Origin: Owenia fusiformis
Taxonomy: Eukaryota > Annelida > Polychaeta > Sabellida > Oweniidae
DNA length: 64,000 nucleotides
Direction of reading: 5' to 3'
Assembly (NCBI GenBank): GCA_903813345.2
Contig: CAIIXF020000001.1
Location: 2,790,001-2,854,000 of the forward strand
Positions 1 through 60,962 of the stretch are shown one piece after another. Under the pieces are notes generated by a model that was not told the origin of the DNA, made no database searches, and was given only the letters and a program-made list of their open reading frames with translations. The position numbers and the translations under genes were made by a program. Position 1 is the first letter of the stretch; each line of letters begins with the position of its first letter.

Positions 1-50
1 AGCTTCATTTCAAAAGATAATGTCTTGAAATATCTGAAATGTAATTTCAG

Positions 51-370
51 AATATGCTGTGCCAAAACTACGAGAAGCTAAAATGAGGATGATACCCTCC
101 CAAACATGTTCTGAAAGGATTTTAACGACGGACAACCAGTATTTATGCGCAGGGTATGCTACGGGATATGTCGGGGGTTGTGAGGAAGACTCCGGTGGCC
201 CTCTAGTTTGTATGGACATGAATAAACGCTGGAATCTACTAGGGACCTACAGTGGAGGACCAATGAATTGTGGGGTTGGTAGCGGTGTGAGACCCGTAGA
301 ACCAAATGTGTTTGCTAGAATAACTCACTTCTCAACTTGGATGGATAGTATTATGAGACTGAATCGGTAA
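51..370 (+). CDS. S1 (chymotrypsin-fold) serine protease, C-terminal exon (partial)
   Basis: This is the last coding exon of a secreted serine endopeptidase; earlier exons lie left of the window. The exon follows an acceptor (TTTCAG, 45-50) and enters in phase with two leftover bases before TAT GCT GTG. It ends at TAA 368-370. The translation has the S1 signature around the nucleophile, GGCEEDSGGPLVC, with the serine codon at 191-193, then the conserved C..CAGY and the C-terminal NVFARITHFSTWMDSIM helix. The catalytic His and Asp would lie upstream. In chymotrypsin numbering the residue before the Asp194-Ser195 pair is Glu, where nearly all active members have Gly193 (oxyanion hole). Position 189 is Gly, so trypsin-like Arg/Lys specificity is not expected. 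Trp215 appears replaced by Gly. The family assignment is firm; activity and substrate are unknown. Confidence 0.88.
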
Positions 371-7688: not shown

Positions 7689-10600
7689 GTAAGTCCTATA
7701 CTAGATATTAAGTCCTTACTTTTAGTTTTAGACCACATGACTCTTTGTAGATGTGATCAATCTCAGTTTGATTTTCAGTACTCAAAAACAGTTTTTATAC
7801 TCACATTTGAACTGTTTTTACTCACAATGAGTTCATTTCACACTCAGGATCATTCTGAGATATACTCACAATGTTACGTGTCTGTATTCATAATCAGACA
7901 ATATATTCCGAATACATTATAGTTACACATCTTGGAATTTCAAAATTGTCTACTAAATTATAGTACCCTGTTGGTTTGAAAGAGCACATTAATATGTTGT
8001 CATTTTTCATTTTTAAAATATTTTTTATTCCAGGTCATGTTTTATTTCCAGAAAATTTCTCATTTATATGATTGACATTTTTATTTTCCTATTAACACAA
8101 ACATTTTCACAGCACAGTAGTCGTGACACATCAACAGATAGTAATTGTGGTATAAAAGTACATGTATATATGTAGTATATCCAAACATGACTGACTGTTG
8201 AAATAGTTTATACTAGTCCCCTGTAGGATGTCCATTTAGCAGGTAAAAAGATCCAAGGAACAGAACCAAGCTTTCAAACATTCTTTAAAGTAGTAGAAAA
8301 ATGTTTTGAAATATCCAAAAAAAGGTATTTCATTTACCAGGGAAGTTTATTTGATCATATACACAATGTTATACATGTGTTATTAAATATTTGTAAGGGC
8401 CATCCTTATCACAACATGTGGGTGTCGTGAGGGTTCTGATAACTCAGAGGATGTCTGTTATAAGTCTGTACAGATTGTTCATTTATTTTTAAAATCAGGA
8501 AATAATATGTCAATAATTTGTCAATGAGCTACTTGAAGTTTTCCAAAATGATGATATCATCCTAAGTTCACTAAAACATGTGGTTTTATACTTTCAAATC
8601 AAAGACTCCTTCCTCTTTGGTGAGTTTGGTCTCAATTTTGTAAAAGTTTGATATTTGTATGTGTAGTGAACAGGGGTAAATATGTGATTGTTTGGTATTA
8701 CTTTAACTAATAAATTTGTTGTATGACTTTCGTATCAATATCTCAAGAGTTGAGAATTAAACAATTTGCTAAGTGTGTGTGGGAAGATTGGATAGGCCAA
8801 GGCTTGTCCAAGATTTATCTGAAAGCCACGACGTGACGATACTTCATTGTATAGATTGTTTGTCTGTCTCAATCCCAAAGACGAAAGATATCAACCTAAA
8901 TTCATTCATAGCTTATCAAGCACATACCTTTGAAAGTTTAAAGTATTTCAGCTATGCCATATTATCGTACAGCTGACTATTGACTTTTATTATCAAAAGT
9001 TTCCCCTCCTATATATATGTATACAATTTGAAGTTCTCAAGCTAGAGTTAATGTTAGCCTTACACTTACCCAATCATTATTTACACATTATGGCGAACTG
9101 TAAAGATACGACTTACTCATTTTCAAGAGTTACTTCATACTTGTATATATTTTGATACGGCAAACTTAAACCAACTATAGTATATTGCTTTCTTTAATAA
9201 CCATTTATTTTCGATAATTTCAAAACTGTCACATCTTTGATATAAATTGTGATTTACATTTCAACTGGGCCAAACCTTACATGCTAACATCTACTGATTT
9301 TGAATCTTACGACTTCTGATCTTACGATTTGTTGTTTAAATATTCCGATATTTTAGTGACGTGGGCTGTTCATATAACAATTGGACAACTCCCACATATC
9401 AGAGAATGTAGAACTTTAAGGTTAACAGTAACTTTGTTACTATGATAGTTAAAACATTATCAATAATTGAAAATGAAATAGGAAGCCGGACTTTTAATTT
9501 TAAGAAAATTGACAAGAATGAGTCATTTAAAGTCCTTTAGATAAATAGATAATTGCTACTTGTGGGTAATGATAAGCTGACTAAGATTTGAAAAGGCCAC
9601 ACAGATATGGACTATGAACATATTGCAAATGGTATTTCAGACAAATTCTCTTAATTCAGATATAAGACTTGTCTGGTAAACCACTTCACTACCGAATCTA
9701 GATAAATAATTTAATATTCCTTTAATTATATGTGTCATTGTGATATATGTGAGATATATTTATGAGGTTTAGACATTTAAGATAAACTTATTCTACCTGT
9801 TTATATATTATAACTGAACTCTATAACTGAACTCTACATACATTTACCACATATGTATGTACCCGAACTATATGTATATTTACCAGACAGAATATGTCAT
9901 TTTCTTGTCTAAAATATATACACCTTCCTCCAAAATACCACTTATGTTTAGGTAACTTTTCAAATACCTTTGTAATATTTATTTTAAGTTTTATGCCGTA
10001 AAAGGGTTTATTAGTAGGTAACTCACATTTAGTTGCTACGATAATGTTTACAAAAATGATTACATGAAGGAAAGTTTTCTTTAGATATTACTTGAGTGCA
10101 ACACTGCACCTTGAAATAAATAAATAATTACGTTCACTAAGATTTGGTTGAACATTTCTAAAGATTGAAATAATCCAGTAGTGAATATAATTTTGGCCTG
10201 CTTTTCTAGTAAGAAAATTAACAGTTACAAGATGTTGGAATGTTGAGGCTTGTCTAGTATAAAAATGCTAACTATGTAAGTCTCCCTGAATCTACCATCA
10301 ATCATTTATAGTCAAATACAATGACAGAAACTTGGTGATTTTTAAGTGGCGTTAATTTCGAAATAATGTGATCTCACCATATTTGTGTTCAGCAACACGA
10401 TTTTGAAACATATCACTTATAATTTATTAATGACATGCGGTTATATCAAACCATTCAATAAGTTCTATCTATTGTCTTATTATTAATGTATAATATATGA
10501 TTTTGATATGATTTGGAACATTGGGATCGAATCATAATGAGGAGCCATCGTATGATAGAAGTACAGATCTATAGAAGTACAGATGCATAGAAGTACAGAT

Positions 10601-13600
10601 GTGTGATAGAAGTACAGATGTATTGAAGTACAGATGCATAGAAGTACAGATATATAGAAGTACAGATGCATAGAAGTACAGATGTATAATAGTAGATTTG
10701 GAACATTGGGATCGAATCATAATGAGGAGCCATCGTATGATAGAAGTACAGATCTATAGAAGTACAGATGCATAGAAGTACAGATGTATGATAGAAGTAC
10801 AGATGTATTGAAGTACAGATGCATAGAAGTACAGATATATAGAAGTACAGATGCATAGAAGTACAGATGTATAATAGTAGTACAGATATATAATAGAAGT
10901 ACAGATGTATAATAGAAGTACATCTGTACTATTAAAGTATTACCAACTTAATGGAAGGAGTTTGTCACATAGTGAATGTATCATCAATGAGGTATGAGAA
11001 TGATAACATTAACCTCGTGTGAACTTTGTGACAGTTCAAGTAAATTGATGGATAATTTCACAGTTATACATGTGAAACATGCCATTTGGTTGTGTATGGA
11101 CTCCTATGTTGTCCCTTACAGTCTCATATTCAAACACTATTTCAGGGGAAAAAAGAAGAAAATTTCAGGGAATTTCAGGGGGATACAAAGATTTGATATA
11201 AGTCTTCCAGATCTGCTTCAAACCAAAAGAGTTAATCACATTTTTTTCTTTTTTGAGTACTTTTTTAACATATGTGAGAATCCAATATTTCTATCTTCAA
11301 GGGAGTCCTATTGGAAAGTGACTTTTTCATGTCTGGGATTCTTATAATGGTGTGTTGATATCTCTGTCTCAGACCATAGCTTTATAGTTTAGGTTAAAAT
11401 AACATGTGTTGACTGATATGAGTAGCTTGACAGAAAATATTATCAGAAGCCTAGGCAAACACTTGAAAGTTATCCTCTAAACATATCTCAGTTTCAAAAA
11501 GTGGGGTAATTAAAGTCGTATAGTATTATTTTCCAACTTATTGCACCCGTAATTATAGCGTTGATGGTCTTTATTATGACATTGATCACTGTGATTCCAG
11601 ACGTGTAAACTCCTCTTAAAAATACCTCGTTTAAAACAAGTGCGTCACAAATACATCCCCTTTTAAGTTTGACATTAAAAGAACAGTTGAAAAGAACGTT
11701 TTTCTCAGTTTCAAGATGGAGGGTGATGACATCATTGAACAGTTACCAGATTTCAGTGTTTAGAGATGGACCAACCAAAACTGAAGGCTTCATAAACAAA
11801 ACTGTCAGGCTCGATTTTACATGACCAAACAAATGTATGTGTAGCTCTGGAAAGCATGCAAAAAGTGAAATGGTTTTAAATTACACGATTGCTCCAAACG
11901 TTTCTGTGTTTGTCTACAAATCGCCACATTCTTTCAGTCATCTCATGTAGAAGTATATCTTCTCTCTTTCTTATGGGGTTGCTTCCTTCATATAAGCTCT
12001 CCTCTTATCCTAAATTGTTTTCATATTTTGCTAAATACCACTAGAAAAATGTTTTGGTAGAGACTTTGAAGATGATAGGTTTATAAACTGTGCTCTTGTG
12101 AACCTAAGGCCAGTCGGTTTCTGAGATACCTATTAAGAAAATGACATTTTTGTTGTGTTTAAGTGATGTTTAGTTAAGATGGAATCAAGTAAAAATTAGT
12201 GAATTTTACAGCAGATATTGCACAATATGAATTCAAATAATATAAAATCAAAGTGTTCCCCCAAACTATAGAAATAGACCAGAAAATGGGAGATAAGGGA
12301 AACTTATGGGGAAGTCTGTATAATATGCTTAGTCCAGTGTATTTGTACAGAACAAGGAGATAAATCTCAAGCCTTTGGTGCTTGATGCTAGCAAAGTTCT
12401 ACTTTGTTTTCCTATATGTGAATCCATGATATATATTGAAAGACAAATCAGTGTTACAAGAAACCTGTTATCTCATGCCTTTATCTGTGATGGTGTATGA
12501 CCTTGTACTTGGTGAATCATTCAGAGCATCGTATGGTGTTGAAACAAGATCTCTGGCATCTATGTCATGTCTGGTGATATCATCAACTCATACCCTTTTC
12601 CATACCCTTTCCATAGTTTCGTTTGCTTACTCTAAGCTCCCTCCAGGTCCCAGGGTATATTCAAGAGTCTGTGCCACATGGTAGAAATTAACCTTCCTTT
12701 GCTTTGAAAAAATCGAAAGTAGGATATTCAAATTGTTTTTTCCCAGACAGCCATTTATATTTTACAGTTAGGTGAATAATTTCAATGTTTGGGCATTTGT
12801 TATGGCACATCAGACATACAACCACATAATACCATCTGATGGCTTGTAAATATTTCTAATTGATTACAGCACTGTTAACAAGGCCCTGATTGTTTAGCTT
12901 AGAGAATTAAAACCAGATTTTGTGTTAATCATTATAAATGCTTTGTCTGTATCTCCTCCATTCATACATATGAATTGTGTTTATAGCAGACATTTGCTAA
13001 TCTGACCCATGTTGAGGCACAGGACCTATACTCACCACAAGACCTGGTAAACAGATCCTTAAACAACACTCCAGACAGTGGCTGTGGAGATAATGAGATG
13101 GTCACTTTAGAAGTGTGCTAGGTGTTCTCCCCAGGATTTTTTTATCTCAAGTGGGTGCACATTTGTCATGTTTGCAGTTCACTCGTAAAATATGCTTATG
13201 CTTTCTTATGTTTTCTTATTTCCATCTAATTTTCATGTGGTTTTCAAATCGCAATGAGGCAGCACCTTGTTTAGACCACTGACCCATTATTTCTTTATAG
13301 GATATAGGTTTTAAAGGGGGGGGGGGGAGGTTTCAAATTGACCTTCAAAACACATTTATACTTCAACAGACCTTCATCTTTTCTTATTTCTGGACTAACA
13401 ATGAATGGACCAAGGAGCTCAAACTTACATATATGTTATTGAAAGTTACAATATGCTATGTTATAATTTTCAATATCTAAGTCAAACTTGACCCAGGGTC
13501 AATGGATTATGGCCTAACTTGTGACTTTATAGACGTTTTGTAGCATAGAAACATTCCATTCAATAATGTAATACTATTTTCTACTAGACTTCCTACAGGA

Positions 13601-25600: not shown

Positions 25601-28600
25601 ATCAATACAGAGGGCACATTTAGATTTGTCACCCTATGGCTTTGACCACTCTAAACTAAATGTTCAGTATTATCATCTCTGCCTTGTATACAAGTATATA
25701 TTGGATGACCCAAGAAGCCTCAACTCATTTCATGGTCATCTGATTTTATCTTGAATACATGTTTTCTTGATGCAAACCAGTGTTATATTTGCCCCAGGTG
25801 AAGTCTCGCATACCTGCGTTTTTATTTCTTGACAGTGAGGTCAGTGTTAAAAGATTTCTTGTCAAGATTGCTAGAGTTTGTGCCTCAGTGGAAATAAATA
25901 ACACTCGTGAAATTAAGGAGTTACTTTTAGGAACGGGTATATGCTTTAACAGTGCTGAATTATGTACATTAGGGGGTGTCAATGATTTTAAGGTCAAAAT
26001 GACAGGTTAGCACATTTTTGGCAATTGAGTTAGTGTAAATCAATAGAGAATTGTCTCAGTTGTAGCCTTTTCTTGGGAATGTTCATCAGACTGACTGAGA
26101 TATTGTGGATTTATATGATTTTATACATAAGAAAATATTAATGGTGAATTAGGTAGTTGTCCGATGTAGATGAGTGAAAGTCCCCCAACAGTTTACGCAT
26201 TTTTGGTAATATACGGTAAAACTTGTGTCTAATGAGCTGTGAACACTCTGTTCGATAGAATTTCTCAAATGTGAACCCGTCTTTATACCCTTTGCATTTG
26301 TTCGACTTGGCTTCTCAAAAGAGAGCTTCACCTTTGGTAGATTATAACTAGACTCTGCGTGCAGGGTAGTCTTTATATGAACATGATATTAAGTTGGCAT
26401 CAGCATTGTTCACTCAGGGGAAGTTTTACTGTATATTAAAGACAATAGAAAAACTAATTAATAGGCTTCACTTCACTGGAATATTCACAAGTGAAAATGA
26501 GCTCCTTTGATCTACTTCTAAGAGTTACTTTTGATTACTCCATTGTGTTTATACAATGTATGGATTGTTCTAATGGATAAACATAATTGAACATGAGAAC
26601 AATTCAAATCCAGTATTTTTATTATTTAATCCTTGAACTTTTCCATCAGTATATAAAGAGTAGAAAAGCATGCATTGATTTTCTTAATTAGCCCAAGCTT
26701 CATTGATACGTATATTCATGATAGTAATAGTGCGAAAGGAATTGTTATTCTAATGTCTATGAAGTGTCCATTGGGATTTTGATCCTTAATGAGTCATTGT
26801 CGGAAATATTATCCTTTGTCTGAGTGATCCTCCGGGAGGCTGGTTATAGTTGTTAGGAGTCTCTTCGAGATGCTGTCGTTTACAGACATTCTTTGGGGGG
26901 AATGAAAACATTCGGGTCTGAAATTCCTACTGTAACGTCATAGAAACTGAAAGTAAAAAATTGATTAATGTTATGTCAATCTGGAATTATTTGTTGTCGC
27001 AAGAAACAAATTATTTCTATTATCTTAAAGAATAAGTAAAGGGGAAGTCATTAGCCCTGTGTTAAATTACATTCCTTCCTCTTCTGTCCATCGAAGATGT
27101 TCCCGATTGTTGGGAGATTTACCGAAGCGTAGAAATAGCTTCAGAAGATGAAAAATGGTGCTTTATAAGATGCAATCTAATTTCCTGATAATCCAATACT
27201 AATAAGAGACACGAGGAAACAATTACTCTGAGAGCCTATTGAAGGATTCATGAAAGCTGTCAGTGAATGGGATAGTTACAGAATGGTCTTTAGCAAACCA
27301 GGGAAATATAACACCAATGCTTCAGTCTAATCTAATCACTTCTCACTCTCTGCCTTCTAGAGTTACTGGAAGGATTAGTGATGCAATTAAAATACTTTGT
27401 ATTGTTAGAAAGATTAAAGAATGTAAGCATTTTGACAGTTTTACTTGGGGTTGTGTTAACCAGTTGTAGCCTAGAAAGAGAAATGGTGTCAAGAGTTATG
27501 CTGATAAAGAAAATACATTTATATTTGTAGAATCTAAATGAAACCAGTTTTATACTCTTCAGAGTCATTTTTTTGTTATTTTCCTTCATCAGTAGTAAGT
27601 TATTAGAAAAAAGAATGAAGGAACGTTATACAAAAATATTTATACAGTAAACCCGATCTGATCATAACGCCATTTGGACAATCAAAGGTGTTTGAAATAG
27701 CAAGTGTTCACATTTTAAGATTAGCAAGGTATTCAATGATAGATTACAAAATTGGGATGAAAAGTGTTCATGTTGAGAGGTGTTCGGATTGTAGATGTGT
27801 TCAGATATTGTAACTATATGAACTTACTGGGTTGAGACGTAATCACTTGATCTACTCCTGGAAGTATGCACTGGGATGCACCCAACAGTGGTAAACTCTC
27901 CATTCCAGCGGACTGAAAAGTAAAAAAACAGGAATTGAAATTAAATCATGAAATTCATACTTGTAAAAAAATTATTATTTGCTACCATTGTATGTCAAGC
28001 ACTGTATTGTATGATACTGTTTTATTCAACTCATCAAAGAATATTAAGTATAATCAAGTAGTGCCATTGAAAATACAAGTCAAAATCGAACCTATATAAA
28101 CCATATAAAATATCCTACCTGTAGCTCCACTTGACTCTTTGTACTCAGCTCCCCACATTGACACCTCGACCCCAGCCTCGGGAATGCTAGCACCCAAGTA
28201 GGCCTCCCCATAGAATGTAGAGTTCCTCGGCACCTCCTCTGGATACCACTCCCATGTGATTGGTCGCTTCTCACATTTTCTTGTTTTCATGTCAATGCGA
28301 TATTCAACATGCTGGAAATTAGGACAGAATTCAGTTGAATCAGAATATCTGTTAAATAATATATTTCAAGATCCACAGTCAATATAAAATATGTACAACT
28401 AGGTCATCTCTAAGATACAAACATATAGTTCTGGTATTACTGAGAAAACCACAAATTTGTTACATTGTTCAAGGATTTATATTTAGAAAGTTATTTTGAT
28501 TTGTTGTTATTTGATATCTTTCCGATATCCTTTATGAAGATTGCTAGTATCAAGAGCTGCAAACAATTGAGAAATGATAGTGCTATTCAAAACAATGGGG

Positions 28601-31600
28601 ATCTTGACCACCCTGTTTCTACAATGTCAGAGCCTAGTACTTGTGCTAGATCATATGATTGAAAAGGGTTAAGCTTAACTCACCTCCCTGTGTAGGTAGA
28701 GTGAATCTGAGTATTCAGTCCTGTTGTCAAAGTAGATTTTGTCAACAAATCGCACTCTCTGGTTGTATGCATCATAAGACACCTTCCCATATCTTTGGTA
28801 CTTGTAGTTGTGGTCATGCTACAAAGCATCAGTTCATACTAAAGTAGTATTAATATTTTATAATGAGACTCAATGATCTCCAGTCTCTAAACTTCTGACT
28901 TAAGTGCCTCAAACTATTCCAAATCTGGAGAATTCTCAATTTTCAACTACAAGCAGGTATAACTTGTTTTTGGATAAACAATTTGACAGATTATCGAGAT
29001 TATACTGTGAATAGATTAATGATTATTAACGTGTTACAATATAAGGTAGAGATACTTACAGATGCTGCATCTCCCTCCCATTCCATGGGAGCCTCTGAAA
29101 GGAAATGTAATAAACTGTACACTACACTATATTACACTACACTATATTACACTACACTATACTACACTACACTATGCTATACCGGCGAGCAATCAACTAC
29201 ATATAATACATTGAGGCTAACAGCCTTGTAAGCAGTTTGTATAGATCTGTTTTAAAAAAGCAAAATTAAAATATTGAGTATTGTGTTAAATGAAATGTGT
29301 TACCATCTTCATTATCAGCCCCTTTGTAAAATATTAGTTATGGTAATAGATATTGAGATGCAGAGACAGCATGCAGCACATTATACACAAAGTATCAAAG
29401 AAAATTTCACAAATAGTTCTTTGTTTAAATCTAGGAACATTTTGCTCAAAAAGATCAAATATTTGGAAATAATTCTGTTATACATAAATTGATAATATTT
29501 TGAATACATACCACATCTGGCAGGGAACTGTGCAGAGGCAGCTGCCACTAAACACAATGTGGAAACAAACAGCAACATTTTGTAGATCAATCTCCTAGGA
29601 TACCTTGAATACAATGATATAACCGTCACACCTCCTTTCAGCTCTGTCTCTTTGGTATCAACAAAACATGGTCCTTCATTGCACATTCAATGTTCATAAT
29701 CATCCTTCTATTTGTCATCATAGAGACTTGTAGGTTTTGATCGAAGATGAGACCTATGTGTGTTTATTTGTGTCTAGTAGATCTTGTGATGTGTTTTAAC
29801 AATTGAGACTCATCATATCTTCATTGTAGATGATCGTAAAAGTAGGTCAATTGATGCACTTAGATATATATGGTACATGAGCAATGTGACCACTTTCAGA
29901 TAACTATGAACAATACAATGCCCTACATGTCTTTATATAATGGTTTGAAACCTCATCTTGGATTACCATTGGTATGAAGTTTTCTTGAAAATTCAAACTG
30001 GTAAGCGAGTATGTTGAAACCTGGGTATTAAGGTGGTCCCATTATGCACCTATTTTGCCAGATTTTTGTTTTACTCTTCCTACCTTAACACATTTGTCTG
30101 GTCAGGCATCTAGAAGAACCTATTGTGATATCAAGTCGCAACTAATTTCTATCACAAACTGTCTTTGTAAAATTAATATCAGATTCTCAAATCTGTGATT
30201 TTTACTGGTGCAATTAAGGTTCAATTTGATGAACCACATATTTGATTTTAAGGTATGACATATAATCACCATTTGATTAGCATTAGAGAGGGGAGGGGGG
30301 AATCATCAGCAACATAGTCACCATTCAGCTTTCTTAACTTTTTCCATTATCCTGAACAGTCTCACACAAAGCTCCGTTAAAATAAATGAAGGGGCACCCC
30401 AGTTGTTATATTTCTTGGAGATGTGTGTATAACTGTATAAGATGTTCAAGTAGAATAAATTTTGGCCGTAACATGTTTTTCTACTCTATTTGTGTATTGT
30501 CTTTCATAATACCTATGGGGCTTTTGCATTTATGTTCTATACCTCAGGCAGAGAGATGTTCTATCAGCAGGTTTACTCTCATATCAATCTAAGGTTCTAC
30601 ATCTACGTTTATTCTGAAGGAGTCTCAGGTGCGTTGTCTGGCTAAAAGCCGCAAATCGCAACTGTTATTGCGATCAGTTAAATCACATGTGTGAACAGTA
30701 TGTGACTTCATAATTGAAAATACATGTAGATATCTAATTTTTGATAACATGTCGATATTGCTTTGATGTATTTCAACGGTGACTTGTGCAGAACAGATTA
30801 CTTCAGAGAATTTTATTATTGGTGGCTGTAGGGAGGTGTTGCAGGTTGAATCATACAGGGATTTGCGGCTGCTAACCTGTTATAATAATGATGAAGGAGA
30901 CGTTTGGGAATAGCACAATATATGCTCCGATGACAGTTAATGCGGGAATGGGTGGAGAAATTATGGTATATCAATGCACATCAATCAAATTCAAGAAAAC
31001 CATTTGTGCTTATGAAAACACCCTTACCAATACAGAAGTTTGATTCTGCTTATTGAAAAGAAAGTCTCATCTGATACACAAGGCTGTGACACTCAGATAA
31101 GCTTATTAGTTTCATTTGGAAGCATTTTTCTTAGGGCAATAAACCGATAACGATAACGTCAGATAACTGAAGATGATGATTTAGGCAAAAACACACTGAT
31201 TAGCTTAGTTGTAGACTCATTAACCAACAGTTAGAAATATATCCTAACTTAAACATTAAGTGTAAAGACATAAACTGTCAGTTACCCACATTTACAAAAC
31301 AACCTGTCTGCGTACATGTATATCATGTTAATAACCATTCATGCATTAATAACATGGGAATTGAGATAAGACCAAATGTCAAAATATATAATAGATAACT
31401 AAGATTGCTAATAATGCCTTGATATCATGAATTAATATGGCATTAATGTGCACTGTTTTGATCGTATAATCCAATGATGTTAATAGTTATTTATTCATAA
31501 CTCAAAAACATCTTTGACTTAGATTATGACTTAGACTTAGACAACCTTTGACTTAGACTACATTTACAAATACCTAGCTTTAAGATATCTTTAAACACAT

Positions 31601-40600: not shown

Positions 40601-43600
40601 TCTTCAACAACAGACCCAACTTCTATGGGACTCTTACTTTGCTTCCATTGACAGCATTGTCGACACAACTTTGGAGGTAAGATACCATGAGATCCTTAGT
40701 CTCAGACAACTAGGATGATATATTTATCTTCCCTCTAAAATTAAGCTAGGAGTAGTAATAGGAGAATTAAATACAATCTGGATCTTCTGAGAGGGATATT
40801 AACTCTTAATAAAGGATGAAGATCCTACATTGTTTTATTTTCCTGACACTAAATAGGTGACACTTGAATAAATGAACAAATACAATATACATAGTATACT
40901 CTCATCTTACATAAAATCATTTTAATGAGTTGATCTTTCAATGACCCAAGATTACTACTTTTTGAGTTGAATTTGAGGTTAATAAAACAATGAATTATTT
41001 CCCAGTAAGTTAAGAATAAACATGAGTTTACAAATCGAAATTCGCTGATATTGTCCAAGGAAAGACAATGCCATGCACCCTATTATTTTTGTTTTCAAAC
41101 CTGGTATCATTATGGCCCAGCACACAATATGATGGCATTTGTGAGTGACTATGATCTCCATATACATTCCTGGTCCCAAATGTTTATTCATTCATATTTC
41201 AAGAAATCAAGTAGGTGCTGAATAAGCGCCAAATTACATTGTCTCACAGTGTCAATAGTTTAAATCTTTGTTTATAAATATATCTGGAGTTTATTTAATG
41301 ACAATTTATTACAACACATTAAGTTCTAAAAGAGGTGTATATTTGTAGTCAGTCTAATTGGCTCTAATCCTTTATTTAAGGAGTTATACAGGTAACAACC
41401 AAAACCAGTAAAAGTAAACATTGACACAAGTCGTGTTTTATGATAGGTGAAGAGTCTAAAGGTTGGCTCACCCTTTAAAGGAATGTTATTCTCCAGATTG
41501 TCTGTAGATAGCAATGTGCAGTTAGCTGTATAATATACAAAGAATTGTATCCCTTTAAAGAGCCACTTAAGCAAAAAATGTAGGCAGTCAGTGTGTTTGT
41601 TTGCTTTATGTGAGTGTATCCAACTTCTGTAATTATTCACTTTGTCAGTTTATATTCTCATATTATAGATATATATTGACTTATTGGGTCGTGCCAACTT
41701 ATTTGTAAGTAAGAAAATTATTTGCGCACTTTGGGGAAATGTCATTTTCTCATACGCATAATAACAGAAGAATCAATCTTAGATATTTCTGAGATAAAAC
41801 ATTGTTTTTAATGTTAATGTCAAACTAAGATGTCGAAATGACAAATGTTTTTTGGATCCTGTTTTCTATATGCTCTATGTCCCCTTGGGGTTTGAATTTG
41901 GGTTTTTGTTGACTGTGCTGAGTTGTGAACAAGTTGTTGAGTTGTGAACATGTAATGTTATGAATACATACACTCCCCTCCATAAGTCTGGCAACTGAAA
42001 GTCCCCCTATTAATCACTCTTCAAAACCTATTTATGTTTTAAGACTGTGATTTAAAAAGAATCATCAGATTTACCATAATTATGAATATCCAAATAATTG
42101 CAATTAATGAGCAAAATTAAGATTCAAACATTGCCAGGCTTTTATATGCAATCCAATGAAAACCTCTGGTTGCCAAACTTATGGAGGGGAGTGTACATAC
42201 TTGGCCATTTGGATGCACAGACCATATTTCCTTATATTATGTAATTATGATGTGTATCTAAGATACTACTGTGCTTTATAAATGGATATTGGGAACTACT
42301 TACTCAATATATATTTTTGAATATGATATTTGATGTCCCTACAGGGTGTCCAATAACTTGAGAAAACACTGTTCATAATACAGAATATTCACTAAGTTTA
42401 TATTACAATGATTTATTGATGATTTGTTTTTTCAGATACTGAAAGATCGTGTCATGCTCCACCGTCGATCCAGCCTCGTTTGGAATAGTGTACCAGGTGG
42501 ACTGTCTTCCGTGCCAGACTATTCTGACAATATACAGAGTCTGCCTTTTTATTACCACTATCTGGGCCGGGAACCTGGATTGAAGTTTACTGCTGTAGTA
42601 TATGCTACAAATTGTATTTTGCTCACTAGTTCACCTTTGTATAAACTACTAAAAAATATAGGCAAATCACAGTCATTAGATAGGGTGAGTGGGTGCTAAG
42701 AGACTGATGGTGTTCAAATGTTAACAATTTGAGAAAAAAATTTGTTATGGTAACCTCCCTATTCCTTCCATAATTTGAAACTAGATTTACTATTCACATT
42801 CTAGCATCGAAAATTAATATTTTGCGCTATCCGAATTGCCATTTCCCTCTCCTATACATTGGAATTAATTTCAATCTTCCATATTGGTGGGCATATGAAC
42901 ACCATCGCCAACTGGTCAACAGAGTTTGATTCAGAATGTCTGATAAAAGTAACTCAACAGTACATGTTGATCACAACTCTAGAATGATGATAATATACTA
43001 TTGTATACATATCCACTGTAAGAGCCTGTTTCTCAACTATATTGCAGCTCTCAATTTGTCAAATTCAATATCAGCCATTGGTTCATGAATTTGTGATAGG
43101 CAATTAAATTTGAATCCGCCTTATCTGTATGTTTCACCAGATGTTTGAAAATAAATAAATGAAATGAAATGAAAATGAATTTCACGCATGGTTCTCCAAA
43201 ATATAGTGCTTTCTTAATCAAGGGGAGGTATTAAATAATGAAGATCTATTAGACCATGATTGTTTATTAAACTTTTCTGTGGTCTGTTTCAGATAATTAT
43301 TATATGGCACTGCGATACCCCTCCACCCCCTTGGAATCGCTGGCCATTGGAGTCCAGTACGCCAATACATATTGTACAGAGTCATAAGTCATATGTACGG
43401 GTGAGTACACATTGTAAATATATTGATATGAACAAAGTGTATAATATACTTTATACCACTCTAAGTCCAATTACAGTTGTATAACATGGGTCTATAACAA
43501 CGATATACAGTGGAGAGTGGTATATCGTCATCGTATACAACTCCTCCGTATACACTCCAGCGTATACCACTGTAGAAGTGCATTCTGGGAACTAATGAAT

Positions 43601-46600
43601 AAAAAAAATCATGAAAATTTTCATGATTTCCTAGAATCAAGTGACGTCATAAATGGTGCCGGCATGATTTGCTAGAATCAAGCCACGTCATAAATGGTTC
43701 GAGATCAACATCAGCATTATTGAGTTGGCTATGGGATATTTTTATGGTTTTTATTGTCGATTGTGTTCGAATCAACTGTACATTGAACTTAGAGTGGCAT
43801 AATAAGATTATATAATGGTTCATTCTGTATATCGTGCATTTTATACTCTTGTGAGAATATACTATATTCACTCGTTCGCTACGCTCACTTGTGAATATAT
43901 AACATACTCACTCGAGTATAAACACGATATACAGAAAGAACCATTATATAACCTCATAGTATATAAGAGATGGTATATAGTGTACAATGTAAGATATGTC
44001 AAAATATGCTCTATGTGCTCTATTCAATAATAGTTCTTTATTCCATAATTATTGGATATACCAATAATATTAACATTAATATAGTATTTGAAGACCAATC
44101 CCTCCTCTGCATAATCCTGGGATGGTATATTTTATATTCATCAGTTACAATATGTTTGTCATATTAATATCTACAGTAAAACCTCTATATCAGAACACCT
44201 GTCTAATTTGAACACCCTTAAACACTTTTTCTCAGTCCCTAATTTATTATTTCCCATTGACTCACATGTTAAAAATTTGCGATATGAACACCTGCTAATC
44301 TGAACACTTTTGGCCAGTCCGATTGGTGTTCATATTAGACAGGTTTTACTGTATTTTATATCTGCACTCTGCAGTAATACTTTAATGATGAACTATAATA
44401 CTTGAAGTCTGTGGGAACATACAATAAGTACTGTATTTGATAGTTCTCGGGGTAATTGATTAAACGCCTACTAAGTCTCATCTATAAACATTTATCCTAA
44501 TACGGCAGCACTGCCTGATAAGCTAGCTATGTAAATTATTACTAGTTGTTAGGTGCATTTTTGTTTTCTCCATTACATCTTATATATTCTACACGTATCC
44601 TGCTTTTTCACAATGTTTCTAAAAAATATTTGAATAGAATAGTTGAAATTCCGACATTGAATTGTAATTGAGGGGGTTAATTACATATGCCAACTATATG
44701 AATTCCCTCTCTTCTCACAATACGTTGTTTTACACAAGACACAAAAGCGCCATGATGTTTTATGTCTCGGCAGACAGCAACACGGTGAGGTGGGATGGGA
44801 GATTAATGTTATTATGATTCAACAGATAACAGTTTACAAACAAACCCAAAGTGTTGCTGTGCTAAACTTAGACCTGGTTTGTATTTTGGGAATTATAACT
44901 AAACTTATAGTGTTATATCATTCAAGGGATGTTGCCAAATTACCAAAATATACATTTACATAAAAACTTCATTATCAGAAATTAATAGGGTCGTTTGAAC
45001 CATTACTGCAACGTGGATATTGATTTTGGTCACAATGAAATCTTCTTTAGCTTTGTGTGTCTCTGCAGTCATTTGTTTCAATAATTAACTTTTACGACAC
45101 AATCGACACATTTTGGATAATTGTATATGTTCCCTTGTGCTATCGTTGTAAATAGGCAGGCAATGGTTTGAAATAGATAGGATGTTCAGGTGTACCTGAC
45201 TGGTGCACTGTATCTATGCTACACCTGGTATAACAGTGGGTTGATATAGCTACCTACTAACAGGTCCCTAAAATCAGAGCATCTAGCTTGTTATAATGCT
45301 ATAATATAGAACATTCAGGGGGGATACAAAACCTCAGGATTTCTCTGCAGCACTTCATCTCTGTGTATACATTGTGATAGTCATCACATCTTTCTGTTTC
45401 AAACTATCAAACATCTTGATAAAAGCCTGTGATCTTTTACTATGCTTTGATACATTTAAGGCAAAGTTTAGAGAACATGATGAGTGAGTGTCTGCAGCAG
45501 GTATTACCATGGAGATCATATAACAAAGAGGGGTGTAGATATACTTTTAATTAGCTGAGAGGTGTGGAACTGAATCCATGAGGTTAAAGGGGAATAATCT
45601 TGTATCACCATCAGATCAGTCATGTTCAGATTGCAATATTTCTCAAGTTGACAACATGTTTGTCTCAGATGATCACATGGTGGTTAGGCTATACCTTGAT
45701 TAAATCTAGGAGTTGTATGGGAAACCTCACCTGCTCCCCTCTTATGCCTTCCTACTCTGGGAGGTGTCCGTCATTTCAGAAAAATATTGGTATGACTACA
45801 GTAAAACCTGTATATTCAAACACCTGTCTTATCTGAACACCTCTCAATGTGAACACTTTTTATTATCCCATCGAACGAAGTTCGGAGGGATATAGGGAAC
45901 GCCTCCGTCCGTCCGTACGTACGTACGTCCGTCCGTCCGTCTGTCCGTCCGTCCGTCCGTCCGGGCAATAACTCAAATACCGTTGGCCCGATTTTGTTCA
46001 TATTTCGTACACATATACCCTATGGGGGTAGAAGTTCTGCTCGAAAGCCGATTTTCAAAATGGCCGCTCATTTCAAAATGGCGGCCATTTTAGTGACGAT
46101 TTTACAGTAATTTAGGTGCAATATGTAAAACTGTAATAGCAATATGTTTTAAATGTAAAAAAATTATAAAGGACATTAATAATGCTACAAATGTAGATAT
46201 TAAAAAGCACATGGCAGCCATCTTGAAAAATGGCGGCCTTTACTCGTCATTTTACGATTTTTGCTGTAACTCAAAAAATAGTGGAGCGATTTTGTTCATA
46301 TTTGGTGTGTGAATACTATAAGCATTGCACACTGTCTAAAGACACTTTTGGTAGAAGGTGGCCATTTTGAAAAATGGCCACCATTTTAACGTATTTTACT
46401 ATAACTCGAAAAGTAGTGGAGCGATTTTGTTCATATTTGGTATGTGAATACTATAAGCATGGCACACTGTCCTATGACACTTTTGGTAGAAGGCGGCCAT
46501 TTTGAAAACAATTTTGAAAAATGGCCGCCATTTTAATGTATTTTACATAACTCGAAAAGTAGTTGAGCGATTTTGTTCGTATTTGGTATGTGAATACTAT

Positions 46601-49600
46601 AAGCATGGCACACTGTCCTATGACACTTTTGGTAGAAGGTGGCCATTTTGAAAACAATTTTGAAAAATGGCCGCCATTTTAACGTATTTTACTAATACTC
46701 GAAAAGTAGTGGAGCGATTTTGTTCATATTTGGTATGTGAATACTATAAGCATGGAACACCGTCTATTTCTAATGACGCTTTTGGTAGAAGGTGGCCATT
46801 TTGAAAAATGGCTATTCTACTATAACTCGAAAAGTAGTGGAGTGATTTTGTTCATATTTGATATGTGAATACTTTAAGCATGGCACATTGTCTAATAAAA
46901 CTTTGAGGAGTAGTCGGCCATTTTGAAAAATGGCCACCATTTTTATGTGTGTTATTTTACAAGTACGTGTGCAATTTTTCAAAATATTTTAGAGGTGGCT
47001 ACTTAAAAGCATATTATTTCTTCTGATGACAACTTGGCTAGTGAGCAACCATTTTGAAAATGGTGGCTTTTCTGGTGTGTTGTTTTATGATATTTGCACT
47101 TCGTTTGTAAAAATGCCAGCCATTTCTGTTCGATGGGATTCGCTACGCTTTGGCATTGCCGTTGTTCTTGTTGGTCCCTGATCTCCCATTGACTAATATA
47201 TTGAGAAAACTATGTGAATACTTGCTAATCTGAACACTTCAGATTCATCCTTAGTAGGTATGCAAGGGTAATAAGGACTTCAACAACCTTAGAATGGTCC
47301 ATCCCTGAGTGAGCCCCAGAATGGCCCATCCCTTAGTGAACCCCAGAATGGTCCATCCCTTAGTGATGTTGCCAGCCCCAAAGGATAACAAAGCCTAGAT
47401 TAACACTTCTAAAACTAAACCACCCAAAGTTTACATAACATAAAATAATAACATTGTCTGCAATTGTCATTAAAGAAGAAAAAGACAAAACACATAGGAA
47501 ATAAAATTACAAGTATACACTCTAAAACAATGTGCAATTAGAGGTTATCATACTTATCATAATAATGTCAGTTTGACAATTTATATTGATTGATATCATA
47601 CGGTTGTGTCTGATGTTATGTTTTCTTTTGATGCAGTTCAGTTTCACAGGGGATTCTGTTATTAATACGCACTTATTTGTACAAGAAAAAATGTTGCTCT
47701 GACATTCCATGAAGGAACACACACAGTGACTCTATTCTCTTCAAGGTCAAATTGCCCTTCTCTTGAGACTAAATATTACCCTTGTATCTCAAAAAACATC
47801 ATACTTAAAGTTGTTTGTACTTAATTAAACGTTAATTCCAAAAGATCTTTGCCCTAGAAGGATGTACTTATGTGATATCTTATTCTAGTGTTTTCAAGCT
47901 CTTGTGTCTGTCTGAAACCAGGTAAAACAGTCTGAACCTCAGGTGACCTGAGAATCAGAGAAGCCACTTTATTTTTGAAGTCAAGTTGATTTTGAATTGA
48001 TTTGCAAGAACTCGTACATCAGCATTATTGTGGTAAGACACCCAGGCACCCCTAGTTCTCCGTGACTTCTGGTCCCAAAGCGATTTCAATCATCGGTGTA
48101 ACTTTTTTATCTTGTAATACTGTTGTATTGTGTTTATAATTGAAATGTAATATCCAGTTAAACTTACATTGGGCTTGGGACACTGTATTTGCTGTAATTG
48201 GAGGTGCCAAATATCCTGCCAAATATAGATGGCGTACTATGACGGTTTGGAGCCTTGGACATTTAGAACTAGAAATGCTCATTTTGAAGACTCTGGTTGA
48301 TATTTCTGAGATGGCACATTCACTGCTTTTTCTGTAATTTTCCATAGATTTCTTTAAAAAGATATTAAAGAAGGAGGTTTTGATTATTACTAAACATATC
48401 TCCCTGGTGATGGCGCTGTGCATATTGGTATCATTGAATGTTTCAGCATGTGTATTGGTAGAGTTGTTTCAAGATGTATTAAATCCATCTAAATTAGCTC
48501 TCATTTACTCAATCTTCATAGAATATCTTAAAGCATGTTGGTGACAAGCTTTTTGGCAGATAAGTTTTGGATGTAGGATGTGGTAGCCAGTGTTATTTCA
48601 GTCTTTGTGGAAATTCTTATTTCTGTAATTTGATGCCTCGCAGAATTTGCGATCAGTTGAACTTTGTGGTGATCTGTTGAAAGATACCTCATGTGGTTCC
48701 CATACTCACAGGGAGTAAAGAAAACATCACATCCAGTAAATATTACGTGATATCATTAAATAGAAATTGGCATTATCTGGAATTCTTGCAACTCATTCAG
48801 TTCATTTATAAAAAAGTTAGAAAGGTCATGAGAGAGTGGCTGTGGCATCCACTGTTTAGACTATCATTTGTCTTCTTCTATAGGCTGCTGGGAATCATTT
48901 CACGATTGTTATTTTTCTCATCACATGACTGTTCAGTAACGGGAAAGCACCGATGCCTCGCAACCAAAGATGTCCTAGCAAAATTCAGATTCTTATTAGT
49001 TAGGTTAGGGCTTATTAGGGTTTTCTTCGGCCATCTTCGTTTTCAGTCACCCATTCAGTAACATTCCAAATAAGATTCAAAATTCTAAATGATCGTATAG
49101 ATTTAATAAATTCATTTCGTTTTTATTATTTCCAACTATAATACCTTCTATTGACCCTTAATCATGTCAGCCTCTTTGACATATGGGTGACAAGAGGTTT
49201 TTACATGTGTATGGCTGTAGTACCTTCAATTGTACAATCTGATTTGTTAAGTGATCCATCTCGCATGAATTGATTACATGCTGATTGGCAATACGTGGAA
49301 TGGCTTTCCTACTTTGACTATCAATCCATTGCACAATTAGAGTGGAAATTAGCATCAAATCTAGCTGATCAGTAGTAATTCTCTCTCTGAATGACATCTA
49401 AATGCGTTAGACTTGATGAATGGGGTAGACGTATATTTTAAGTTCCAGTAATTACAGGGCATAAAGAAAACAGATATTCATTTAACATGATGTTAGATTA
49501 ACATTTAAAGGCCATTTGTGCCAAGGTATTGGATTTACAAGTTGAAATTAGATTTTTCCGTTTCATTGTGACTCTGAAAGTGTCCAATTGGAGTTTCACC

Positions 49601-52600
49601 TGATTTCAATAGAATTACACAGTTCCTTGAATTTTTATTTTCATTTAGTAGGATATTGTACATTTTAAAGAAAGATTATTGTTCATGGAATTTCTTGATA
49701 TTTTATCAGTTTGATTCAAGATAGATGGAAATGATTTTCTTCCTCCTCCTTAGGTCAAGCCGACTTGTGGTTATCTCTAACACATACCTTAGATCATGTT
49801 CTAACAGCCTCAGCATCATTTAAGGACCATTTACACATGTTCATAGGCAAACATAGCTCAAGTCTGTGTTATATTGGACCACAAAGAATAAGCTGTACTG
49901 CTTCAACTTCCTGTCAAAAGGTGACGAAAAGTTAATCTTTGCCTAGTATGATATGTTATTTAACAGATCTTTATATATTCCTTGTTGTTTTGGTTAGTTG
50001 TTTAAACTTGGAATAAACACTTATTTTCAACAAGTTTGCACAAGAATTTAAAAGACAAACATTATGTCTAATCTTTGAAACCTCAAGTTACTCATATCAT
50101 CAGTTATATTAATTAAGGAGGAGATTAAACATGAATGAGTTTTCACTTTGCATCAGAAAATACTTGATATTTGTGAAATATAACAAGTAGTCGTCTATAG
50201 ACCAATGAGAACATGTAGCCATCTATAGGCCATTCAGGTAATAAGTAGTCATTTATGGACCAATCAGATAGCAAGTTACTTACTATCTTTGGCCAAATTA
50301 GATAACATGTGACCACCTATAGACCAATCAAATTAAAGGGACACATTTATTATACGCATCAATGAAAAAATAATATTTAAAGTTGTTGTTAAACTTTTCT
50401 GATAGCAATTGCAATATCATATATAGATACTAGAAAAAACTTCTTTTTATCTTAACAACTATGATATTAGATGATCTTAGCTACCCAATCTTACACTTTA
50501 TACCAATGAATTACTTAATCCTAAATTAGCATGTACATAATATCCATAATATGCAATTTTCCACTTTAACTGCCTACAATTAGGTAACAAATTACTGATT
50601 CAAAAGTCAATATCAATCAAATACAGGATATTACTTTTTGCAACTACATGTACGTTAATCCAGTTCTGGTTGATGGTATCAACTATAATAGCTAACTACC
50701 CTTTGGTGAAAATAGCATGATTTTGTTTCACATGCATCCAGTTCAGAGCCAAAGTAGAGGGGTGATATTTTTGAAAAGCTTTAAGAGAATTACAAGACAA
50801 TATGGAAAATATATCTAGGTTAAGATGACACGAGCACAATTTGACTGTATTTGTTGACCATTTGTTGTCAACATTTAAAAGTGTTTAGTGATGCCATGAT
50901 CTTATTTGGCATTACACTAAACTAAGGTCAAAGTGTGCTTTTTACGACAAATATATGCAATTTTTTTGTTGCGTTGACGTCGTTGTGTACTAAGTTAAGG
51001 TTCAAAGCGCTCATCTCTTTGGCGTTATTCATATTCACAATAGTGGATGTGAACTGAATGTCATGTATATACCAGTTTCGTTTTATTATTTAGAAAATCA
51101 GTGCCAATTTTATTTTAAGATAGTACTTATTGTATGTTTCAGACAATCACTGCCAAATTTATTTTACTGTAGTTCTAGGTTTCAGATAATAAGTATCATA
51201 CAAATTGTATAATAGTACTTATTGAATATTTCAGACAATTTGTATAATAGTATTATTGAATATTTCATACAATTTGTATAATAGTACTTATTGAATATTT
51301 CATACAATTGCATAATAGTGCTTATCACATGTTTCAGACAATCAGTGCCAGATCTATTGTATGATAGTACTTATTGTATATTTCAGACATCAGTGCCAGA
51401 TCTATTGTAAAATAGTACTTATTGTATGTTTCAGACAATCAGTGCCAGAGCTATTGTATGATAGTACTTATTGTATGTTTCAGATAATCAGTGCCAGATC
51501 TATTGTATGATAGTACTTATTGTATGTTTCAGACAATCAGTGCCAGATCTATTGTATGATAGTAGTTATTGTATGTTTCAGACAATCAGTGCCAGATCTA
51601 TTGTATAATAGTACTTATTGTATGTTTCAGACAATCAGTGCCAGATCTATTGTATAATAGTACTTATTGTATGTTTCAGACAATCAGTTGTATGATAGTA
51701 CTTATTGTATGTTTCAGACAATCAGTGCCAGGTTTATTCCCTACAAAGACATCCAGACAGAAGCAGTGCTGAGCCTGGATGAAGATGCCTTATTGACCAC
51801 AGATGAGGTAGGTGTCTTTACAGTAATACATGTGGCTAATATTCAAATGATTTTTATCAACCAAGTGTTGTATTGTTGTTAGCGCTGGTGGGTGTCATCA
51901 AAATTTCATGAAAAAACGCTTTAACTTCTGGTTTTGTTTTGGGCATGCTTTGTAAATAACTTAGTGACCATTTTGAGTTTTTGGATAAAAAGTGTGATAT
52001 TTATCATTATGTGCCTTGTTTTAATCATAATTTATTTAGCCCAGAAGGAACAGACTGCACGATTACATTTTGCCATACATGTCCTGGACTTTTAGATATA
52101 AAATTATAAGTTAGATCTCTTTAACGTGCTCATCATCTCATTACATCATGTCATTACATTATTGCTATGTTCCAGGTGGATTTTGCATTCTCTGTGTGGC
52201 GGGAGTTCCCAGAAAGGATTGTGGGATACCCGGGTCGCAACCACTACTGGAGTGATGCTCATGAGAGGTGGGCATACACATCAAAGTGGACCAATGATTA
52301 CTCCATGGTTCTCACAAGTGCTGCTTTTATACACAGGTTTGTAGAAACCCAAAGATATATACAGGGTGACACAAGAACAATGGAATCATCATGAATTTTA
52401 TTGTATAGAGTGTCACTGAATGATACAATCAGATTTTAAGAAATTATGTTTAATTTACATGTTAGGACTAACCTACACATGATAATTTAAGAAGATTCAG
52501 TCATAATTGAGAACGTTAAAAGTGTTGCATTTTTTGTGTCACCCTGTATTACAGTTTTATTAGGAGTATTATTCTCTTTTTAATTCATAATCCAAGAGCA

Positions 52601-59229: not shown

Positions 59230-60962
59230 GTTCTAAATCCAGATTATATTGAGTTTTGCCACACAGCATTCTGATTGTACTAAAACATAGGATTCAGTAT
59301 TGCCCTAAAACACAGGATTCAAGACTGCTTTAAATCCAGATTGCTCTAAAACACAGGATTCAGGATTGCTCTTAGTCCAGATTGCTCTAAAACACAGGAT
59401 TCAGGATTGCTCTAAAACACAGGATTGCTCTGAATCTAGATAGAGGATTCAAGATTATTTAAAAGCAGATGATTCAGGATTACTCTAAATCCAGATTGAG
59501 GATTCAGGATTGCTCTAAATCCAGATTGAGGATTCAGGATTGCTCTAAAACACAGGACTGCTCTCTGAATCTAGATAGAGGATTCCAGATTATTTAAAAG
59601 CAGATGATTCAGGATTGCTCTAAATCCAGATTGAGGATTCAGGATTACTCTAAAACACAGGATTGAGGATTCAGGATTGCTCTAAAACACAGGACTGCTC
59701 TCTGAATCTAGATAGAGGATTCCAGATTATTTAAAAGCAGATTTAGGATTGCTCTAAATCCAGATTGAGGATTCAGGATTGCTCTAAATCCAGATTGAGG
59801 ATTCAGGATTGCTCTAAAACACAGGACTGCTCTCTGAATCTAGATAGAGGATTCCAGATTATTTAAAAGCAGATTTAGGATTGCTCTAAATCCAGATTGA
59901 GGATTCAGGATTGCTCTAAAACACAGGATTCAGGATTGCTCTAAAACACAGGACTGCTCTGAATCTAGATAGAGGATTCCAGATTATTTAAAAGCAGATG
60001 ATTCAGGATTGCTCTAAATCCAGATTGAGGATTCAGGATTGCTCTAAAACCAGATTGAGGATTCAGGATTACTCTAAATCCAGATTCAGGATTACTCTAA
60101 ATCCAGATTGAGGATTCAGAATTGCTCTAAATCCAGATTGAGGATTCAGGATTGCTCTAAATCCAGATTGAGGATTCAGGATTATTCTAAATCCAGATTG
60201 AGGATTCAGGATTGCTCTAAAACCAGATTGAGGATTGCTCTAAAACCAGATTGAGGATTCAGAATTGCTCTAAATCCAGATTGAGGATTCAGGATTGCTC
60301 TAAATCCAGATTGAGGATTCAGGATTATTCTAAATCCAGATTGAGGATTCAGGATTGCTCTAAAACCAGATTGAGGATTCAGGATTACTCTAAATCCAGA
60401 TTCAGGATTACTCTAAATCCAGATTGAGGATTCAGAATTGCTCTAAATCCAGATTGAGGATTCAGGATTGCTCTAAATCCAGATTGAGGATTCAGGATTA
60501 TTCTAAATCCAGATTGAGGATTCAGGATTGCTCTAAAACCAGATTGAGGATTCAGGATTGCTCTAAAACACAGGATTGAGGATTCAGGATTACTCTAAAT
60601 CCAGATTGAGGATTCAGGATTGCTCTACATCCAGATTGAGGATTCAGGATTATTCTAAATCCAGATTGAGGATTCAGGATTGCTCTAAAACACAGGATTG
60701 AGGATTCAGGATTACTCTAAATCCAGATTCAGGATTGCTCTAAAACACAGGATTGAGGATTCAGAATTGCTCTAAATCCAGATTGAGGATTCAGGATTGC
60801 TCTAAATCCAGATTGAGGATTCAGGATTATTCTAAATCCAGATTGAGGATTCAGGATTGCTCTAAAACCAGATTGAGGATTCAGGATTGCTCTAAAACAC
60901 AGGATTGAGGATTCAGGATTACTCTAAATCCAGATTGAGGATTCAGGATTGCTCTACATCCA
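59230..60962. repeat. 1.7-kb minisatellite of 30-bp units with higher-order structure
   Basis: The monomer is CAGATTGAGGATTCAGGATT followed by GCTCTAAATC, roughly 55 copies. Variants replace AAATC with AAAACACAGGATT. In the left half, a block with GAATCTAGATAGAGGATTCC recurs at about 59432, 59567, 59704, 59836 and 59961, a ~125-137-bp higher-order period. In the right half, a different ~120-bp block beginning GATTCAGAATTGCTCT recurs. Each monomer holds a GGATT-GCTCTA-AATCC inverted pair. Confidence 0.95.

Follow-up and report, generated by a model that had tools for sequence, protein, structure and literature searches.

A minisatellite across the intron 6/exon 7 border of EXT1 in Owenia fusiformis, probably a by-product of repeat growth

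EXT1 and the repeat array before its exon 7

The window analyzed here, a stretch of 64 kb, belongs to an O. fusiformis genome assembly of 498 Mb in 525 contigs, in which contigs C1 to C12 measure 31.9-62.2 Mb each. Its GC content is 33.6%; that of lancelets, which enter the comparison below, is about 41%. An EXT1 gene of nine coding exons was placed by homology on the forward strand at 6793-53337, using phmmer, tblastn, splice sites, and the stop of the open reading frame, which lies at 53337. The first coding exon matched human EXT1 (PDB 7sch_A) in phmmer with an E value of 2.4e-106, and tblastn with an approximate human EXT1 query returned nine collinear pieces from 6793 to 53322. Elsewhere in the window, an open frame at 38-370 (forward strand) resembles by eye the terminal part of a trypsin-like protease, and open frames at 28054-29686 (reverse strand, inside EXT1 intron 1) resemble, again by eye, pieces of an ependymin-like gene.

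Exon 6, located by tblastn and splice-site reading, occupies 43293-43400 (forward strand, 108 nt) and ends in phase 0. The initial annotation had given 43400 as the donor of this exon; that position is indeed its last base, but the donor, GTGAGT, starts with the first intron base at 43401. Exon 7, at 51718-51807 on the forward strand, is 90 nt long, encodes 30 residues in phase 0, and is followed by the donor GTAGGT at 51808. It is flanked by an intron of 8,317 nt (43401-51717) before it and one of 368 nt (51808-52175) after it. The reading frame of exon 7 is open and homologous to human EXT1, its coding sequence is intact, and it matched the Glyco_transf_64 family with an E value of 1e-4. Exon 8 of human EXT1 is presumably likewise 90 nt long, in phase 0, and begins with the same residue, so that the border of exon 7 looks ancient and the true acceptor at 51718 secure.

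Examination of the 3' end of intron 6 revealed a tandem array, reported by TRF at 51307-51738 (period 49, 9.1 copies, score 668) together with a second array of 34-bp period at 51196-51342. Each 49-bp unit spans the border, as had been proposed, joining 28 nt from the end of intron 6 to ~21 nt from the start of exon 7. The main array, defined by TRF and unit comparison at 51338-51717 on the forward strand, comprises eight units of 48-49 bp, the final one being 38 bp. All eight decoy acceptors listed in the initial annotation (51338, 51387, 51435, 51484, 51533, 51582, 51631, and 51680, forward strand) were recovered, each having TTTCAG and an exon-like start, as does the true site at 51718. The intronic half of the true junction (51690-51717, forward strand, 28 nt) holds CTTAT, a possible branch site whose A would lie at -14.

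The extent of the array, in contrast to the eight decoys, had been drawn too short. Four further AG decoys at 51094, 51143, 51186, and 51235 bring the number to about a dozen, and two more upstream copies, at 51269 and 51304, have AG changed to AT. The first three of these decoys lie in an outer, older-looking part of the array (51084-51195, forward strand), in which two copies, 51094 and 51143, still agree with exon 7 at 18 of its first 21 bases. The decoy at 51235 and the two AT copies belong to a stretch of 34-35 bp units (51196-51337, forward strand) from which most of the exon part is gone. The arrangement is not of the NAGNAG tandem-acceptor type, as the AGs of the main array are 38-49 bases apart and each has its own upstream tract.

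The eight main copies share 22-28 of the last 28 intron bases with the true site in ungapped comparison, that is, 22 at 51338 and 26-28 from 51387 onward. Over the exon part, ungapped identity is 18-19 of 21, except at 51387, where a 1-base deletion leaves 6 of 21, and at 51680, where the shortened unit leaves 13 of 21. Three decoys equal the true junction over all 32 bases. The six outer copies retain 11-26 of the 28 intron bases, likewise ungapped, and are on the whole more diverged than the copies from 51387 on, with the exception of 51143, which still has 26.

When the 32-base junction was searched against the window, at least 24 matching bases were found at 10 places on the forward strand, which are the true site plus nine of its copies in the array; on the reverse strand no place reached 24, the best having 22. 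A whole-genome search, of a kind that skips common words, returned 10 matches, all local, and thus no junction copy outside the array. On this basis an origin of the unit from a dispersed element was rejected. Exon 7 is also the sole case among the eight EXT1 acceptors to have such upstream copies.

The exon part of the unit encodes ISAR(F), which tblastn aligned to MSSRF of the human protein, pointing to the exon as the likely source of the repeat. The 18 of 21 exon bases matched by the copies at 51094 and 51143 indicate that the copied stretch included coding sequence. Judged from this protein conservation, copying is likely to have proceeded from the exon into the intron.

Other tandem repeats occur in the window. 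Within intron 6 of EXT1, three 146-bp units with AAAATGGCCGCCATTTT stand in tandem at 46364-46807, and a 111-bp unit at 509-739 of locus L036 resembles this 146-bp unit. Intron 1 holds, at 10510-10911, a 185-bp unit in two copies 99% alike, composed of short ATAGAAGTACAGATGT repeats. A large 30/60-bp minisatellite (~53 copies of 30 bp) lies downstream of EXT1 at 59420-60962.

Strength of the decoy acceptors and their effect on the reading frame

Acceptors were scored with a TTTCAG-like matrix built from 78 acceptors of p450, ABC, and myosin genes of the same genome; being trained on sites that it selects itself, the matrix leans to TTTCAG. The true acceptor at 51718 scored 9.4, above 55% of these 78. 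From 51338 to 51680 in order, the main decoys scored 6.9, 10.9, 9.4, 9.4, 9.4, 9.8, 9.4, and 9.4 (range 6.9-10.9), seven of the eight thereby equaling or exceeding the true site, and the older decoys at 51094, 51143, 51186, and 51235 scored 6.0, 9.4, 7.6, and 10.0. AGs scoring no lower than one unit below the true site numbered 9 of 48 in 51051-51717 versus 2 of 386 elsewhere in intron 6. Of the seven other EXT1 acceptors that were scored (range 7.5-12.1), five stand above that of exon 7. Nothing in the core splice signal, then, marks out the true site, and since three decoys do not differ from the true junction at any of 32 bases, whatever chooses the true site must lie outside that signal. 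The EXT1 array is in effect a natural version of a duplicated-splice-site experiment.

With the corresponding own-genome donor matrix, the exon 7 donor at 51808 scored 9.2. A cryptic donor, CAG|GTTTAT, lies inside exon 7 at 51732, 14 bases past the true acceptor, with a score of 6.1 (own-genome 25th percentile, 5.7); it is absent from the decoy units.

Read from the phase-0 end of exon 6, the eight decoys in order meet their first stop at codon 9, 8, 9, 9, 9, 9, 9, and 31, that of 51680 falling inside exon 7. These are the stops described in the initial annotation, and use of any of the eight would, as stated there, cut EXT1 short, either ahead of or inside the exon encoding SLDED, which we take to be the DxD motif of EXT1. 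The same annotation had read the premature stops as an argument for function, which does not survive comparison with the remainder of the intron. Reading from any of the 386 intron 6 AGs outside the array likewise ends at a stop ahead of or inside exon 7, in 170 cases within nine codons. A truncated product is thus what any intronic site would be expected to give and is uninformative on function, and stop codons were rejected as a sign of it.

Arrays at exon borders of other genes

The genes that supplied the acceptor matrix were also surveyed for repeats at their exon borders. The family matches reported numbered 223 (106 p450, 25 ABC, and 92 myosin), of which 99 were entered and 94 lay inside 73 loci. 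From 93 candidate acceptors, 78 with a score >3 were kept and 15 dropped, and 84 of 92 candidate donors were kept.

One array was noticed by eye in the TRF list and stands outside all border counts given below. It precedes an ABC-transporter exon carrying the H-loop (L056/L031; RTVLVIAHRLSTIQNADLIAVVSHGAIKE) on the minus strand of C6 at 9938.1-9939.3 kb and consists of ten units of 114-115 bp, nine of which carry most of the exon and an intact TTTCAG decoy. These nine decoys score 9.6-13.6 versus 12.8 for the true site, all nine lead to stops, and a lone extra TTTCAGGAAGGAC lies ~540 bases further upstream. A myosin exon (L072, C1 57.3737 Mb; ATYARDALCKAIYSRLFAWL) has a border-spanning array of 61-bp units at 1003-1280 on the reverse strand of the locus, with four upstream decoys scoring 8.3-12.3 versus a true score of 10.0, all giving stops; its acceptor had been re-placed by hand from 1170 to 1231 ahead of the TRF border count. 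In the ABC gene L033 (C12 12.569 Mb), three tandem AG|AATGTGTCA acceptors are spaced ~21 bp apart, the upstream decoys scoring 9.2 and -0.3 versus 12.5 for the true site. Its paralogue L034 (C12 12.554 Mb) has, ~166 nt before the exon, a degenerate copy of the beginning of that exon. On the donor side, the myosin gene L066 (C4 17.297 Mb) has four tandem donors, ACAG|GTAGGG, in a 34-bp unit at 2305-2440 on the reverse strand of the locus. The script placed the donor on the second of the four, and by its sequence we regard the array as a donor-side counterpart of the lancelet repeats discussed below.

Five border arrays (EXT1, two ABC, and two myosin) in a small sample show that the kind is not unique to EXT1. 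The initial annotation had held that the EXT1 array goes beyond what is usual for an intronic repeat; with four more such arrays in the same genome, three of them at acceptors and one at a donor, and border-spanning minisatellites known in lancelets, this claim had to be abandoned.

We then compared borders with other parts of these genes, in a census that is small, with overlapping loci and many paralogues, and with EXT1 and the C6 ABC array left out of its TRF count. Requiring a period of at least 15, a score of at least 50, and at least 8 bases on each side, TRF arrays were found at 3 of 162 borders (2 of 78 acceptors and 1 of 84 donors), at 187 of 3,914 intron points (in 21 of 71 loci), and at 2 of 1,400 exon-interior points. 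No border array was found by this count among the 28 p450 loci.

The 32-base junctions of the 78 acceptors were also scanned against the 700 bases upstream of each. The null, consisting of 5,446 comparisons with sequence that flanks loci of other contigs, had a maximum of 23/32, and two of the 78 acceptors exceeded it, L072 with 28 and L034 with 24; L033 reached 20 because the scan is blind to copies 21 bases apart. A scan in both directions found at least 23/32 at two of 78 acceptors (L034 and L072) and one of 84 donors (L066), versus 43 of 857 intronic control windows, 39 of which had at least 24. By the junction scans as well as by the TRF count, borders carry such repeats no more often than introns do, and a border rate between the intron and exon rates fits incidental capture of borders.

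Choice of the true acceptor and comparison with known systems

The name "mirages" was given in lancelet Adh3 to tandem repeats lying across an exon-intron border, and further cases come from the lancelet globins BflGb6 and BflGb9, troponin C, and PGBD5, according to excerpts of PMC3087553 and PMC3902484. Regular splicing is reportedly undisturbed by them; the mRNA evidence in these excerpts is RT-PCR for the globins, and blocking of mRNA decay is not mentioned there. As such border arrays are known in lancelets and recur in the present genome, we consider the EXT1 array to have arisen probably through growth of a minisatellite that took in an exon border, rather than to be a device for regulating the gene.

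A tandem duplication at the border of intron 6 and exon 7 would have copied the 3' end of the intron along with the first ~21 exon nt, and repeat expansion would then have added up to about twelve copies ahead of the real acceptor. The 3'-most copy alone is joined to the body of exon 7 and to a strong donor 90 nt downstream. With a long intron of 8,317 nt before exon 7 and one of 368 nt after it, recognition across the exon is plausible, and U2AF/U2 at the nearest acceptor together with U1 at 51808 would then select the true site. The remaining decoys would be skipped, or would give low-level noise presumably cleared by nonsense-mediated decay. The array is probably a by-product of the frequent minisatellites of this genome, and a regulatory role is unnecessary to explain it. 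It is a good deal more probable than otherwise that the true site is dominant and that the decoys are silent or contribute noise.

For exon-defined exons, excerpts of PMC9225289 propose a proximity rule across the exon, which favors 51718 as the acceptor nearest the donor. In human data from the same excerpts, competing 3' sites at least 20 nt apart lean upstream, less so under exon definition; such a lean would favor the decoys and is the main point against incidental repeat growth with the true site dominant. Also counting against it, the true site is not strong, being outscored by five of seven other EXT1 acceptors, and exons extended to the three nearest decoys (51680, 51631, and 51582) would be 128, 177, and 226 nt long, which are normal sizes.

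These same features, decoy scores equal to that of the true site, exons of 128-226 nt, and the upstream bias in human data (PMC9225289, in excerpt), lend support to a low-level leak, in which the three nearest decoys would be used at a few percent as harmless splicing noise. Arguing against it, aberrant mRNA was reportedly absent in lancelets, or regular splicing undisturbed (PMC3087553 and PMC3902484), by globin RT-PCR with a decay block unmentioned. We give such a leak an even chance; it is a noisy version of the explanation by incidental repeat growth and overlaps it.

The initial annotation went further and proposed that decoy use rises with copy number and that the stop-bearing products are degraded, array length thereby tuning EXT1 and heparan sulfate. 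In keeping with this proposal, just one of the eight decoys scores below the true site, premature stops follow from all eight, and lancelet minisatellites of this kind are unstable in length (PMC3087553, in excerpt). TTTCAG has, moreover, 0 substitutions in the nine main copies, versus 12 in the 22 columns upstream of it. This last count is biased, however, as copies were picked by TTTCAG, and two older copies lack the AG. The stops are the default among intron 6 AGs (386 of 386), the like arrays in ABC and myosin genes point to a general by-product, and the features of the sequence indicate neither selection nor decoy usage. We therefore regard this tuning as improbable. Equally doubtful is its wider form, in which the decoys compete measurably and an unstable copy number sets the fraction of EXT1 mRNA that is decayed. 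Were it true, then, given the arrays at borders of several other genes of this genome, differences in repeat length could widely cause variation in expression, both inherited and perhaps somatic. Better supported is the alternative offered in the same annotation, namely selection of the true site by exon-definition signals.

Tandem arrays are prone to miscounting, and the length or even the existence of the array might be an assembly artefact, but the copies differ singly (a 1-base deletion, a 38-bp unit, and single substitutions) and the assembly has arrays of this sort at other places, making this very unlikely. Least likely are tandem 21-nt microexons, in which a unit acceptor and a GTATGA 21 nt downstream would produce in-frame TISARSI cassettes: ACA ATC AGT GCC AGA TCT ATT is open and in frame, with GTATGATA next in several units, but the introns between units would measure 28 nt, and the reading was rejected on donor scores of at most 1.7 for GTATGA and 2.6 for GTATGTTT, below the own-genome 5th percentile of 3.9 (84 donors).

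Among known systems, Turri is said to have described in 1995 a human IFI6 minisatellite that supplies several splice donors, which are used in the transcript. Its unit holds a splice site, as in EXT1, yet on the donor side, whereas the EXT1 array is on the acceptor side; the donor array of the myosin gene L066 is the closer parallel. In poison exons and alternative splicing coupled to decay, the choice of splice site creates premature stops. Such stops would likewise follow if the EXT1 decoys were used.

The nearest relatives are the lancelet mirages. These and the EXT1 array alike span a border, carry a splice signal and a piece of the exon in each unit, and adjoin the true site, and BflGb6, like EXT1, repeats the 3' end of an intron with the 5' part of an exon. 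They differ in unit size (49 bp in EXT1 versus 150-160 bp in BflGb6 and 10-72 bp in Adh3), in copy number (~12 decoys versus 3-6 units in BflGb6), and in host gene, EXT1 here versus Adh3, globins, troponin C, and PGBD5. Mirage copies are expected to homogenize in the interior of a cluster rather than at its edge; in EXT1 the lower identity of most outer copies would fit this, whereas the 26 of 28 intron bases of the copy at 51143 would not. As in mirages, the units before EXT1 exon 7 span the border with its splice signal, and the true border forms one end of the array with the coding sequence of the exon intact; in structure, the EXT1 array is almost certainly a mirage minisatellite. Together with the arrays in ABC and myosin genes, it suggests that mirages of the lancelet type may be common in another animal genome, where they bear on splice-site choice, on errors of gene annotation, and on the idea that such repeats seed new introns.
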